Shown here in pieces: positions 21,169-25,277 of a stretch of DNA of 32,879 bases. The notes below the pieces were generated by a model. The model saw only the letters and a program-made list of their open reading frames with translations, made no database searches and was not told the origin of the DNA. The stretch spans positions 1 through 32,879 of the forward strand of contig PWHJ01000083.1 of the NCBI GenBank assembly GCA_003554865.1, read 5' to 3'. The first letter of the stretch is position 1, and the number at the start of each line of letters is the position of its first letter. The stretch is from Bacteroidota bacterium. Its GTDB lineage: Bacteria; Bacteroidota; Bacteroidia; Bacteroidales; PUMT01. The translations under genes were made by a program, and so were the position numbers.

Positions 21169-22068
21169 ATGAAACCCTCACTTCTGGTACTGGCTGCCGG
21201 CATGGGCAGCCGTTACGGAAGCCTCAAGCAGATCGACCCGGTGGGTCCCTCAGGTGAGACCATCATTGACTATTCGGTATATGACGCGCTGAGGGCGGGA
21301 TTCGGTAAAATTGTCTTTGTAATAAGAAAAAACATTGAAAAGGATTTTAAGGAAACACTGCTGAAAAAATTCGAAAAATTCACTCAAGTGGATTATGTTT
21401 TTCAGGAGCTGGATATGCTTCCTGCCGGATTTGTGCCGCCCGGGGAACGAAAAAAACCCTGGGGAACGGCCCATGCCGTACTTGTTGCAGAAAATGCAGT
21501 AAAAACCCCTTTTGCTGTTATAAATGCGGACGATTTTTACGGGTATGACGCCTTTTATCAAACAGCCCGCTTCCTTGAAGAAAATCAAGAGGGAACCGAG
21601 TACTCAATGATAGGGTACCTTTTGAAAAATACCCTCTCGCGGCACGGGACAGTTTCAAGAGGAGTATGCAAAACTGACAGCAACGGTTACCTTGTCTCGG
21701 TCACAGAGCACACGCGGATAAAAAAGGAAGGAGATGAAATCGTGTGCAACGGTGAGGATCAAAAAAAGGTGTTGCCCGCCGATACACCGGTTTCTATGAA
21801 CTTCTGGGGGTTTACTCCTTCAGTCTTCGGTCAGATAAAACAGGGGTTTTCCGCCTTTCTAACCGAAAATATATGTGATGAAAAATCTGAATATTTTATT
21901 CCAGAGGTAGTTGACAAGCTCATAAAAACCAAAAAGGCAAAAGTAAGGGTCCTCCCCTGTAACTCCTCCTGGTTCGGGGTAACCTACAGGGAAGACAAAC
22001 CAGCAGCAATAGAACATATCAGGAAGCTGGTGGAAAGAGGCGAGTATCCCGATCCCCTCTGGAAATAA
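21169..22068 (+). CDS. Sugar-phosphate nucleotidyltransferase family protein
   Basis: A 299-residue protein with a GT-A-like nucleotidyltransferase core. The N-terminal LAAGMGSRYGSLKQ is a variant of the GxGTRxxPxTK pyrophosphorylase signature, and VINADDFYG carries the metal-binding Asp. These enzymes usually join NTP and a sugar phosphate into an NDP-sugar. I choose ATG 21169 over the in-frame GTG at 21151 because the protein then starts MKPSLLVLAAG, as expected, and GGAAG lies upstream. The sugar is unknown. It follows the symporter on the same strand, but a shared role is not certain. Confidence 0.85.
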   Translation: MKPSLLVLAAGMGSRYGSLKQIDPVGPSGETIIDYSVYDALRAGFGKIVFVIRKNIEKDFKETLLKKFEKFTQVDYVFQELDMLPAGFVPPGERKKPWGTAHAVLVAENAVKTPFAVINADDFYGYDAFYQTARFLEENQEGTEYSMIGYLLKNTLSRHGTVSRGVCKTDSNGYLVSVTEHTRIKKEGDEIVCNGEDQKKVLPADTPVSMNFWGFTPSVFGQIKQGFSAFLTENICDEKSEYFIPEVVDKLIKTKKAKVRVLPCNSSWFGVTYREDKPAAIEHIRKLVERGEYPDPLWK

Positions 22069-22090
22069 ATATAAAATAATGGCTCCACAA

Positions 22091-22121
22091 TTTGGTTAAC
22101 GCAAAAACGTTATTATATTTG
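22091..22121 (+). promoter_or_regulatory. Bacteroidota-type promoter of the metH leader
   Basis: TTTG (22091-22094), exactly 19 nt, then TATATTTG (22114-22121). The predicted transcription start is near 22128, about 27 nt before the riboswitch P1 helix. Confidence 0.8.
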
Positions 22122-22154
22122 CAAGCAATTGAGCCTCCTTTCTTTTAAAAAGTA

Positions 22155-22267
22155 GGTTTAATTTATAAAGAAGAGCTGAGAGAACAGGCTCTGCGAAGCT
22201 CTAGCAACCGCCCTCCAAAGGGAAATGGTGCTAAAACCTGCCCGAATGGGAATGATAAATTAAAACC
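22155..22267 (+). ncRNA. SAM-I (S-box) riboswitch
   Basis: Closing helix P1 is GGTTTAATTTAT (22155-22166) with ATAAATTAAAACC (22255-22267), with one bulge. Inside are AGAGCT paired with AGCTCT (P2), the conserved AGCAACC, a CCCT/AGGG hairpin (P3), GGTGCTAA, a GCCC/GGG hairpin (P4) and GATAA. The SAM-I pseudoknot is also present: CAGG in the P2 loop (22185-22188) can pair with CCTG (22237-22240). Binding of S-adenosylmethionine should lower metH expression. No U-tract terminator follows P1 directly. Instead the P1 3' strand ends 7 nt before the ATG of a short ORF. Confidence 0.93.
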
Positions 22268-22274
22268 GTATGCA

Positions 22275-22409
22275 ATGAAAACAACAATCAGCTTTACAAG
22301 TAATTTATTATCCGGCAAATACCCGATTAAAGGTATTTTTGTATATGCCGGGCACACCGCTGTTTTCCTTCTCACTGTTCGAATGTGCAGCATGATGATG
22401 CACCATTAG
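22275..22409 (+). CDS. Putative methionine leader peptide (44 aa)
   Basis: A short ORF from ATG 22275 to TAG 22407-22409 lies between the SAM riboswitch and metH. It is 44 residues and ends RMCSMMMHH-stop: four Met in seven codons just before the stop, next to a Cys. Clusters of codons for the pathway product just before the stop are the hallmark of attenuator leader peptides. The middle (GIFVYAGHTAVFLLTV) is hydrophobic. No homologue is recalled and translation is not proven. Its start codon is 8 nt from the P1 3' strand, so the riboswitch could affect its initiation. A strong hairpin follows at 22502-22535. Confidence 0.6.
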   Translation: MKTTISFTSNLLSGKYPIKGIFVYAGHTAVFLLTVRMCSMMMHH

Positions 22410-22592
22410 CTGAGAGAAACCGGAGGCCGGTCCGGGCCCTTCATTAGCCACAGCAGAAGGAAGAACCAAGCTGTAACAAGACCGGAGTCCGAACAAAAGC
22501 CGGCACATGGCAGGTGCTTCATTGCCGCCTGTGCCAACGGGCCGATTATTATTAAATAAAACAAATAAAAACGATTATAAAAAACACAAAAT
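22410..22592 (+). promoter_or_regulatory. Structured region between leader ORF and metH (candidate attenuator)
   Basis: Three hairpins can be drawn. ACCGG-AGG-CCGGT lies at 22419-22431. ACAGC (22450-22454) pairs with GCTGT (22470-22474). The large one spans 22502-22535: GGCACA / TGTGCC outside, then GGC/GCC and GG/CC with single-base bulges. The last is followed by an ATTATTATT stretch 11 nt later, a weak terminator-like tail. The remaining 40 bp to the metH ATG are AT-rich and lack a Shine-Dalgarno. The competing folds needed for attenuation have not been worked out. Confidence 0.5.
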
Positions 22593-25277
22593 ATGAAAAC
22601 GACCGATAAACTTTTAAACAGACTGGAAAAAGAGATACTGGTACTTGACGGTGCAATGGGTACCGTTATGCAGGAATATGATCTGAAGGAAAAGGATTTC
22701 CGGGGTGAGAAGTTCCCGGATCATAAAACAGACCTCAAGGGGAACAATGATATACTGTCACTTACAAGACCCGGGGTTATTTCACAGGTTCATAACAGAT
22801 ACCTGGATGCCGGTGCAGATATAATAACAACCAACACTTTCAATGCAAACAGGGTATCCCAGGCCGATTACGGCACGGAAGATTTTGTTTACGAAATGAA
22901 CCTTAATTCAGCAGCCGTTGCCAAAGAGTGCGCAAACAGAAAGAATCGTGAAAACCCTGACAAATGGAGATTTGTGGCAGGCTCTGTCGGACCGACAAAC
23001 AAGAGCTCATCCATACCAGTCGTACCGGAAAAACCCCACAAAAGGGAGATATCTTTTGATGAACTGGCCGAGTCTTATATGCCTCAGGTTGATGGACTGA
23101 TCAAGGGGGAGGCAGATATACTGCTTATCGAGACCTCCTTTGACACCTTGAACACAAAGGCTGCCATTTTTGCCTCACTCAGGCTTTTTGAAAAATACGG
23201 ATTCAAAATCCCTGTTGTGCTGTCCTTTTCTCTTGATTCGCTTGGCAAAAGGGTATTGTCGGGACAAAGTGTTGAGGCTTTCATCAATTCAGTCAGCCAT
23301 GCCGACCCTTTGGCTATGGGACTTAATTGTACGGGCGAGGGATCGCTCCTGAAGGATTCTTTCATTGAGCTCTCTGAAATATCACCTTATTACACTATAT
23401 TCTACCCCAATGCGGGAACTCCCGATTCCAACGGTGAGTATTCGCAGACAACCGGTGAATTCCGCTCGCAACTTGAACCTCTGCTTGAGAGCGGCAAAAT
23501 AAACATTCTGGGAGGGTGCTGCGGAACTTCGCCTGATTATATTGAAATGCTCAGCGAACTTGCCGGAAAATACACACCAAAAAAGCCTGCTAAGAAGGAA
23601 GGGGGTTTAAAGCTAAGCGGACTGGAAACGCTTGAGCTCAAACCGGGCAACCTCGTTATTGCAGGAGAAAAAACGAACACGGCCGGGTCAAAGGCTTTTG
23701 CAAAAAGTATAGAAAACCGCGATTATGAAAAATCGGTCAGCATTGCCCGGCAACAGGTAGAAAACGGTGCACAAATACTGGATGTGTGTGTTGACGATCC
23801 CCTTGTTGACGGGAAAAAGGCAATGCGAAGAATTCTCCATTCATTCGGTTCGGATCCTGTCACTTCACGTGTTCCTGTAATGATAGACTCCTCGGATTTC
23901 GGGACTGCTGAAGCCGGACTTAAATGCCTGCAAGGCAAAGGAGTTGTTAACTCGATTAACCTCAAGGAGGGTGAAGAGGATTTCCTTGAAAAGGCCAGGC
24001 TTGTCAAACACTACGGAGCATCCGTTGTTGTAATGCCCATTGACGAAAAGGGTCAGGCAAACTCCTTTAAGCGCAAAACCTCAATTGCATCAAGGGCCTA
24101 TAAGCTGCTTACGGAAAAAGCGGATTACGAGCCTTCAAATATCCTTTTCGATCTAAATGTTATGGCCGTTGGGACCGGAACGGATGTTGAAGAAAAGGTT
24201 GCAGCGGATCTGGTTGATACATGCCGCTGGATAAACGAAAATCTTCCGGGTGCAGGAACCGTTGCCGGGGTAAGCAATCTTTCCTTCTCCTTCAGGGGAA
24301 ACAACGAAATACGAAGCGCCCTTCACGCGGTCATACTGGAGCATCTGGTGGAGGCAGGACTATCGCTTGCCATTGTGAACCCTGGAGAACCGAAAGAGAC
24401 CGGTGATTTCAGCAGCGATCTGATAAGCCTTTGTGAGGAGCTTCTTTTCCGTCCCTCGGAAAAAGCACTGAATCAGCTTATGGAGTGGAGCGGGGATTCT
24501 TCTTCTCAGAGAAAAACGAAAGATGACGGTCAAAGCAAATGGCGTGAGCGTGGTGCCGAAGAAAGACTTGAATACTCGCTTTTACACGGTATAACCGAAT
24601 ACCTTGGGGAAGACATAGATGAACTTTGCGGGCATTATGAAGACCCCATGGAAATAATACACGGTCCGCTTATAAACGCAATGAAAACTATAGGGGAATT
24701 GTTCGAGAAAGGAGAGATCTTTTTGCCGCAAATAATCAGAAGTGCCGGTATAATGAAAAAAGCGGTAGACCACCTGCAGCCAAAAATTTCCGAAAGTACA
24801 GCTGGCACCCAGGCCAACACCAACGGTAAAAAGCTTATACTTGCAACTGTAGAGGGAGACGTACACGATATAGGGAAAAACATAGCCAAGCTGGTCCTCT
24901 CATGCTACGGATATAAAATAATTGACCTTGGCATAATGGTACCCTCAAAAGATATTGTAGACAGGGCTGCTGAAGAGAAGGCCGATTTAATCGGACTAAG
25001 CGGTCTTATTACCCCTTCGCTTGAAAAAATGGGAGAGGTTGTACAGATGCTGGAAGACAGGGGTATGAACATCCCGGTAATAATCGGCGGTGCGGCAACT
25101 TCTAAAAGGTATACGGCGCTGAGGCTGGATCCGCTCTACAGCGGTGCCGTGGTCCATGTCAACGATGTTGCTGGAGCCCCGATAGTGGCAAGAAAACTTA
25201 TTTACAGCGATAAACATCCCGGCTTCCTGAAAAAGGTTAAAAAACAGTACCTGCAAATTCAGGAGGAGGAAGAATAG
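22593..25277 (+). CDS. metH: Cobalamin-dependent methionine synthase lacking the reactivation domain
   Basis: An 894-residue MetH that transfers a methyl group from methyltetrahydrofolate to homocysteine through cobalamin. The homocysteine domain (about 1-330) has the zinc Cys246 (GLNCTG) and Cys309-Cys310 (GGCCG). The pterin domain spans about 350-610. A B12 cap domain (about 650-740) leads to the B12-binding domain with the lower-ligand His758 in EGDVHDIGKN. The protein stops shortly after the B12 domain. Classical MetH (about 1,200 residues) has a further AdoMet-binding activation domain of about 330 residues that is absent here, and no such gene follows. Reading is intact to the stop, so this looks like a natural short form. 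It is controlled by a SAM-I riboswitch and probably a Met leader peptide. Confidence 0.94.
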   Translation: MKTTDKLLNRLEKEILVLDGAMGTVMQEYDLKEKDFRGEKFPDHKTDLKGNNDILSLTRPGVISQVHNRYLDAGADIITTNTFNANRVSQADYGTEDFVYEMNLNSAAVAKECANRKNRENPDKWRFVAGSVGPTNKSSSIPVVPEKPHKREISFDELAESYMPQVDGLIKGEADILLIETSFDTLNTKAAIFASLRLFEKYGFKIPVVLSFSLDSLGKRVLSGQSVEAFINSVSHADPLAMGLNCTGEGSLLKDSFIELSEISPYYTIFYPNAGTPDSNGEYSQTTGEFRSQLEPLLESGKINILGGCCGTSPDYIEMLSELAGKYTPKKPAKKEGGLKLSGLETLELKPGNLVIAGEKTNTAGSKAFAKSIENRDYEKSVSIARQQVENGAQILDVCVDDPLVDGKKAMRRILHSFGSDPVTSRVPVMIDSSDFGTAEAGLKCLQGKGVVNSINLKEGEEDFLEKARLVKHYGASVVVMPIDEKGQANSFKRKTSIASRAYKLLTEKADYEPSNILFDLNVMAVGTGTDVEEKVAADLVDTCRWINENLPGAGTVAGVSNLSFSFRGNNEIRSALHAVILEHLVEAGLSLAIVNPGEPKETGDFSSDLISLCEELLFRPSEKALNQLMEWSGDSSSQRKTKDDGQSKWRERGAEERLEYSLLHGITEYLGEDIDELCGHYEDPMEIIHGPLINAMKTIGELFEKGEIFLPQIIRSAGIMKKAVDHLQPKISESTAGTQANTNGKKLILATVEGDVHDIGKNIAKLVLSCYGYKIIDLGIMVPSKDIVDRAAEEKADLIGLSGLITPSLEKMGEVVQMLEDRGMNIPVIIGGAATSKRYTALRLDPLYSGAVVHVNDVAGAPIVARKLIYSDKHPGFLKKVKKQYLQIQEEEE

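Follow-up and report, generated by a model that had tools for sequence, protein, structure and literature searches.

Here we report the organisation of a methionine-gene leader from a Bacteroidota bacterium (contig PWHJ01000083.1, positions 1 to 32,879), the whole stretch of 32,879 nt being referred to below as the window. A promoter, a SAM-I riboswitch aptamer, a short open reading frame (ORF) with a Met-rich end and a hairpin precede metH, all on the forward strand:

22091..22121, forward strand: promoter of Bacteroidota type, TTTG plus a TAnnTTTG box (sequence; set-wide TAnnTTTG count)
22155..22159, forward strand: P1 extension, 5' strand GGUUU, able to pair with 22262-22267 if one A is bulged
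22160..22261, forward strand: SAM-I riboswitch aptamer with an A/U-rich outer P1 (Rfam RF00162, 75.6 bits)
22262..22267, forward strand: P1 extension, 3' strand AAAACC, ending 7 nt before the leader ATG (pairing excess over mate swaps)
22275..22409, forward strand: leader ORF of 44 codons, C-terminal RMCSMMMHH-stop (sequence; orthologues; dN/dS 0.33 and 0.29)
22383..22406, forward strand: putative control codons ATG TGC AGC ATG ATG ATG CAC CAT (Met enrichment in leader tails)
22385..22403, forward strand: inverted repeat within the Met tail, GTGCA...TGCAC (read from the sequence)
22419..22431, forward strand: possible short hairpin 3' of the stop, ACCGG-AGG-CCGGU (read from the sequence)
22499..22542, forward strand: late hairpin, core 22502-22535, then ATTATTATT; possible weak terminator (MFE fold, sequence)
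22593..25277, forward strand: metH, cobalamin-dependent methionine synthase without the C-terminal activation domain (TIGR02082 model)

Anatomy of the metH leader

The first-pass annotation had claimed a full promoter, and its parts are present: TTTG at 22091-22094 and, after 19 nt, TATATTTG at 22114-22121, which fits TAnnTTTG. Among the order and family loci surveyed below, 75 of 99 have a TAnnTTTG box in the 90 nt before the aptamer, against 7.0 in shuffles (2 of the 101 loci had too little upstream sequence to be counted). Such a box is reported for flavobacteria in the accessible part of PMC9723704; the output of a sigma-70 scan did not contain the TAnnTTTG promoter. The aptamer was correctly named as SAM-I, with a sequence-structure match to RF00162 of 75.6 bits against a cut-off of 44.4. 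It is the sole family above its gathering score in the window, no T-box match reaching that level there, and a second known RNA element before metH was rejected after a search of 22060-22700 gave three other matches with E values of 0.26 to 8.1, far below the cut-offs. One SAM-I copy was found in the genome, the assembly of which has 96% completeness. The distance of 7 nt first given between aptamer and leader holds if the P1 extension (GGUUU:AAaACC) is included; from the end of the Rfam model the leader ATG is 13 nt away. As had been claimed, no terminator lies between the aptamer and this ATG, and an earlier ATG in the spacer, at 22270, meets a stop after two codons.

The 44-codon ORF described at the outset, MKTTISFTSNLLSGKYPIKGIFVYAGHTAVFLLTVRMCSMMMHH, runs to a TAG stop at 22407-22409, with metH following after a gap of 183 nt. 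The idea that it encodes a member of a known protein family was dropped, there being no Pfam match, and a search for further copies of the leader in this genome gave one weak match only (E 0.593). The hairpin proposed at 22502-22535 (GGCACA...UGUGCC) is recovered and widened to 22499-22542 in the minimum free energy fold of 22374-22592 (z -2.46), with a weak tail, CGATTATTATT, behind it; the window's best terminator-like site is likewise weak. In the same fold the bases of the possible post-stop hairpin at 22419..22431 pair further downstream instead. The metH product has 894 amino acids and covers only the first 880 of the 1182 positions of the MetH model TIGR02082. Its nearest named relatives, at 68-69% identity, are from metagenome-assembled genomes that carry the label Bacteroidales or Bacteroidetes and isolate names containing 'Sed'.

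Distribution of tailed leaders among SAM-I loci

We compared 198 SAM-I loci, drawn from 158 genomes within the window's phylum. Searches with RF00162 gave a match in 89 of 295 genomes of the order, 14 of 16 of the family, 314 of 395 of the phylum and all 24 of a hand-picked set from the class. From the order we used 91 of 101 places, leaving out the 10 lowest-scoring (G013, G199, G176, G097, G223, G229, G198, G287, G276), and from the family 10 new places of 17, five being duplicates and two (L101, L106) being dropped because they were cut by contig ends. The phylum set comprises 47 loci hand-picked from the best-scoring among the matches listed, which favours GC-rich P1, and the class set 50 of 59 matches from the 24 chosen genomes, many of them with several or lower-scoring matches. 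Since loci were picked by hand or by score, the class and phylum fractions given here are not unbiased frequencies. Loci whose 5' P1 strand contains TTATC or TCATC were called C P1 (72 loci) and all others non-C P1 (126 loci). The order and family loci were split in two ways, into AU and GC classes (88 and 13) and into non-C and C types (87 and 14).

A leader with a Met- or Cys-rich tail was found at 64 of 126 non-C P1 loci and at 0 of 72 C P1 loci. Within the non-C type, tailed leaders occur at 53 of 87 loci in the order and family, 11 of 35 elsewhere in the class and 0 of 4 elsewhere in the phylum. Counts by genus are the safer figure because related genomes are not independent; on this basis, among genera of non-C P1 type, the order set has the leader in 27 of 44 and the class set in 7 of 15. 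To be counted against the pairing, 17 of the non-C loci in the order and family have an ORF without such a tail, several of these having one Met, and a further 10 have no ORF. The main gene itself starts at about the leader's position in 9 non-C loci. GTG starts were sought post hoc in 37 loci, 7 of them direct-gene loci, and six fitted, all from one genus, with GTG at the same place and a Cys-rich or Cys/Met-rich tail. One genus with several SAM-I copies (L199, L200, L206, L214, L217, L224) has GTG-started, Cys-rich leaders.

The window's own gene is not the typical partner. Among the 29 metH loci of non-C P1 type in the order set, 8 have a tailed leader, 7 a direct metH start, 7 an untailed ORF and 7 neither, which speaks against a universal rule for metH loci; in the class set the tailed leader is found at 0 of 5 metH loci of this type. 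Before genes other than metH the order set has it at 45 of 58 non-C P1 loci and, given 8/29 against 45/58, the window represents the rarer metH form of a design often found ahead of other genes, many of which belong to the sulfur pathway. In seven metH loci (L038, L051, L064, L011, L016, L028, L065) metH itself begins 11-20 nt behind the aptamer; these leaderless arrangements suggest direct control of the metH translation start.

A proposed nested switch and its alternatives

The architecture itself, an aptamer followed by a leader, is near certain. The reading that we favour, with a probability of about 0.7, is a nested two-input switch in which SAM would block translation of the leader, and the leader, once translated, would sample the charging of Met (or Cys) tRNA; both parts, gating by SAM and tRNA sensing by the tail, are likely on the evidence of sequence and comparison. 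Judging from the anatomy and the related loci, high SAM would close the A/U-rich, extended P1 so that ribosomes cannot start the leader, and low SAM would leave P1 open and the leader translated. The tail codons suggest that poorly charged Met-tRNA would then stall the ribosome at the Met codons at 22383-22400, just before the stop. In the last and least certain step, the stalled ribosome would let transcription proceed into metH, by preventing termination at downstream hairpins or by shielding the RNA behind the stop from Rho in the manner of tnaC. A leader that is untranslated or quickly finished would lead to early termination, and the net logic would be that metH is on when low SAM coincides with uncharged Met-tRNA. 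The tails of sister loci have Cys codons beside the Met codons or in their place.

The tails depart clearly from chance. The AU class of the order and family contains 67 ORFs of 15-60 codons, of which 49 have at least two Met in the last ten codons (52 tailed ORFs if at least three Cys are also counted), as against a mean of 13.2 ORFs and 0.245 Met-tailed ORFs (maximum 2) in 200 dinucleotide shuffles. Per ten codons, tails contain 2.13 Met, compared with 0.10 in the remaining leader, and the two alternative frames give 0.06 and 0.12; this is the in-frame enrichment of pathway amino-acid codons that characterises a leader-peptide attenuator. The composition of the tail also tends to fit the pathway downstream, with Met before metH and often Cys before metY and cysH. 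Tails before metH (n=8) contain on average 2.38 Met and 0.25 Cys, those before metY-type genes (n=30) 1.97 Met and 2.37 Cys, with runs such as MCMCCCC; metY-type here means O-acetylhomoserine sulfhydrylase, the family (PF01053) having been checked in L030 alone. Three of the four tails before a gene with a TAEEV motif, which we take to mark a gene of homocysteine-synthesis type, end MDMRCMR. These gene labels come from short motifs, which left 15 of 63 tails unlabelled and mislabelled at least one (L102, with an aspartokinase-type start, was labelled metX). Cys-rich leaders precede the PAPS/APS reductase gene cysH (confirmed in L217, with L224 similar), an ATP-grasp protein (L214) and a permease for amino acids (L199). 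For metY and cysH a connection with sulfur supply is clear; for the ATP-grasp protein and the permease it is not. Three loci of the window's order (L037, L058, L060) have Cys-run tails with no Met, such as SLCCCCCCC and FCCCFCCC, L037 lying before a periplasmic-binding-like protein.

The RNA between tail and gene is more structured than its shuffles: in 47 loci the whole stretch had a mean z of -2.11 and the best 48-nt window -1.15, compared with 0.09 for 48-nt windows inside genes. A strong intrinsic-terminator-like site was found in 6 of 51 leader loci, and in 17 of 51, these 6 included, at a lower threshold (shuffles 1.6% and 12.7%); the leaderless, mostly C P1 set has 29 of 66 strong and 37 of 66 at the lower threshold. 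Five leaderless loci from elsewhere in the phylum (L168, L169, L172, L174, L180) have similar CCTCTT-type terminator stems with a U-tract. A trp-like set of 1:2, 2:3 and 3:4 pairings fixed by distance from the stop gave duplex z values near 0 in up to 39 loci, a result that applies to fixed geometry only. By eye, aspartokinase leaders of the window's family have a Met-tail hairpin, in most cases a short post-stop hairpin, and a later hairpin; from 11 family leaders RNAalifold recovered the Met-tail hairpin alone, of which the inverted repeat at 22385..22403 may be the counterpart in the window. Because strong U-tract terminators are rare and the fixed-pairing test was negative, termination by Rho, relieved when a ribosome stalls at the end of the leader, is at least as likely as an intrinsic attenuator.

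These same features bear on the alternative that the leader merely couples translation to transcription, SAM acting as the gate and ribosomes excluding Rho, with a tail that senses no amino acid and in which AUGCGC/GCAUGC is a hairpin motif. The rarity of strong U-tract terminators would suit this arrangement, and control by a riboswitch of a small upstream ORF with Rho termination is described for Mycobacterium tuberculosis in the accessible part of PMC12810186. Repeats of AUGCGC/GCAUGC are predicted to fold the Met codons of family leaders into a hairpin, GCAUGC-gca-GCAUGC in the aspartokinase tails, and Arg in the tails is mostly CGC (42 of 69 codons in 47 loci), compared with 4 of 45 in the remaining leader, where AGA is commonest (17 of 45). 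Met is confined to the reading frame, however, and the Cys runs, several of them before sulfur genes, mix TGT and TGC; we regard pure coupling as unlikely.

Conservation of the ORF and its Met codons in relatives, on which the first-pass annotation had staked its reading, was found, in two 44-codon orthologues with dN/dS of 0.11-0.33 and in tailed ORFs from the 27 and 7 genera counted above. The two orthologues, L034 (...VRMRGMMYGF) and L099 (...LRMRNMVYGF), belong to the window's genus and differ from each other at 6, 4 and 18 sites in codon positions 1, 2 and 3, with dN/dS of 0.11; the window's leader compared with the two gives 0.33 and 0.29, all three ratios being rough because dS exceeds 1 for every pair. 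Identity between the window and L034 is 0.60 in the leader and 0.32 in the gap behind it. A conserved short ORF under coding selection is what a leader-peptide attenuator should have; counted against it, the tail is only loosely kept, with 4, 3 and 2 Met in the last ten codons of the window and the two orthologues. In the window's family the body before the tail is constrained too (FPLLIPKHM...), dN/dS being at most 0.5 in 28 of 31 usable pairs (45 pairs in all). This constraint would be expected if the leader worked as a small protein in its own right or as a nascent-chain arrest peptide that senses a metabolite (Met, SAM or some other) within the tunnel, rather than as a sensor of tRNA charging, and the 42-48 codons of family leaders are enough to fill the ribosome exit tunnel. 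Across families, however, what recurs is the start position and the Met- or Cys-rich tail, and leaders elsewhere shorten to as few as 18-26 codons, so that we consider this alternative improbable.

The gating step of the nested switch had been put forward in the first-pass annotation as possible control by the aptamer of whether the leader is translated at all, and it gains support from the spacing of starts, from extension of P1 into the spacer and from the loci in which the main gene starts there instead. Among the 101 order and family loci an ATG lies 7-26 nt behind the aptamer in 82 of 88 of the AU class (76 of these at 8-16 nt) and in 2 of 13 of the GC class. Of the 95 non-C loci that have a start codon followed by an open frame behind the aptamer, 44 allow extended P1 pairing, whereas 200 mate swaps gave 23.5 on average and never more than 33; a small excess in C P1 loci too (8 of 72; swaps mean 3.6, maximum 8), which counts against the point, means that the extension is not exclusive to the non-C type. 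The commonest distance from the last extra pair to the ATG is 6 nt (13 of 44), and the extensions are built of several different base pairs. The spacer is A-rich (49% A), and the window's group is not known to rely on Shine-Dalgarno sites. Spacing and P1 extension together are what a direct block of initiation by a closed P1 would need. An aptamer and a leader acting independently, with separate outputs and ungated translation, would leave the late hairpin at 22499-22542 as the leader's own device; the gap of 13 nt without a terminator in the window, the dichotomy of P1 types, the start spacing and the direct-gene loci all oppose this, and we think it highly improbable. Finally, a chance ORF behind an ordinary SAM-I riboswitch, for which one might cite the 21 of 29 order-set metH loci of non-C P1 type that lack a Met-tailed leader, is contradicted by the shuffles and by conservation within the genus and the wider set, including the orthologues, their dN/dS, the wider-set counts and the GTG-started leaders.

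Relation to known systems and significance

The locus resembles other SAM-I (S-box, RF00162) riboswitches in having a full aptamer above the curated cut-off before a Met gene and differs from them in what follows: a leader ORF begins next, with no terminator directly behind the aptamer, and the A/U-rich P1 can possibly be extended. Known outputs of the family are an intrinsic terminator or sequestration of a start region beside P1. With the amino-acid leader-peptide attenuators of the trpL and hisL type it shares a short ORF in which codons of the regulated pathway are abundant, with RNA structure behind it; unlike in those systems, the leader here stands behind a metabolite aptamer and strong U-tract terminators are mostly missing. 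In E. coli tnaC a ribosome stalled near the leader stop shields the RNA from Rho, as we propose here, but the tnaC stall is brought about by the nascent chain and free Trp and not by tRNA shortage. A further leader-peptide attenuator, cysS uORFC-8-2, is described in the accessible part of PMC8632094.

Closer in logic are SAM-I/T-box(Met) tandems before Met genes, for which the available portion of PMC9481103 describes sensing of both SAM and Met-tRNA charging with a predicted 'NOT A AND B' logic. The same two signals would be read here, but the tRNA is read by a T-box RNA in the tandems and, by our inference, by a translating ribosome in the window, where the sensors look nested. The Xanthomonas SAM-I riboswitch likewise reads SAM and Met-tRNA state in one leader: as far as the consulted part of PMC7270179 goes, it senses uncharged initiator tRNA, which binds the expression platform and frees the Shine-Dalgarno sequence. 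It differs in that the tRNA acts on the expression platform, and the term 'leader peptide' has 0 occurrences in the text of that paper. In M. tuberculosis, the abstracts on the B12 riboswitch/uORF (PMC11260477) and Mbox/uORF (PMC12810186) leaders describe interplay of a riboswitch with, or its control of, translation of an upstream ORF, with a Rho output for Mbox, and they mention no tail of regulated-amino-acid codons such as that seen here. Leader peptides have also been remarked on in Bacteroides and Flavobacterium transcriptomes, according to the portions available of PMC7366714 and PMC9723704. Both halves of the locus are thus well-known devices; in the literature searched, largely seen in part and exclusive of preprints and most subscription papers, we found neither a SAM-I riboswitch joined to a Met or Cys leader peptide nor a riboswitch gating a leader peptide that contains codons of the pathway under control.

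More generally, on the sequence comparisons we think it somewhat better than an even bet that the window belongs to a widespread kind of gated attenuator in its class, in which the expression platform of an A/U-rich-P1 SAM-I riboswitch would be the start codon of a leader, the Met or Cys control codons would be exchangeable and chosen by the downstream gene, and the metabolite sensor would decide whether the tRNA-charging sensor is read. If this is true, the leader type (Met or Cys) would be predictable from the downstream gene, and the nested logic would be distinct from that of tandem riboswitches with independent platforms. It would also suggest how SAM-I works in these bacteria without a terminator adjoining the aptamer. 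As the same combination is found across dozens of related genera, the cells probably consult two signals, one after the other, before they make methionine, and many genera of one phylum would then possess a nested RNA circuit for sulfur amino acids.
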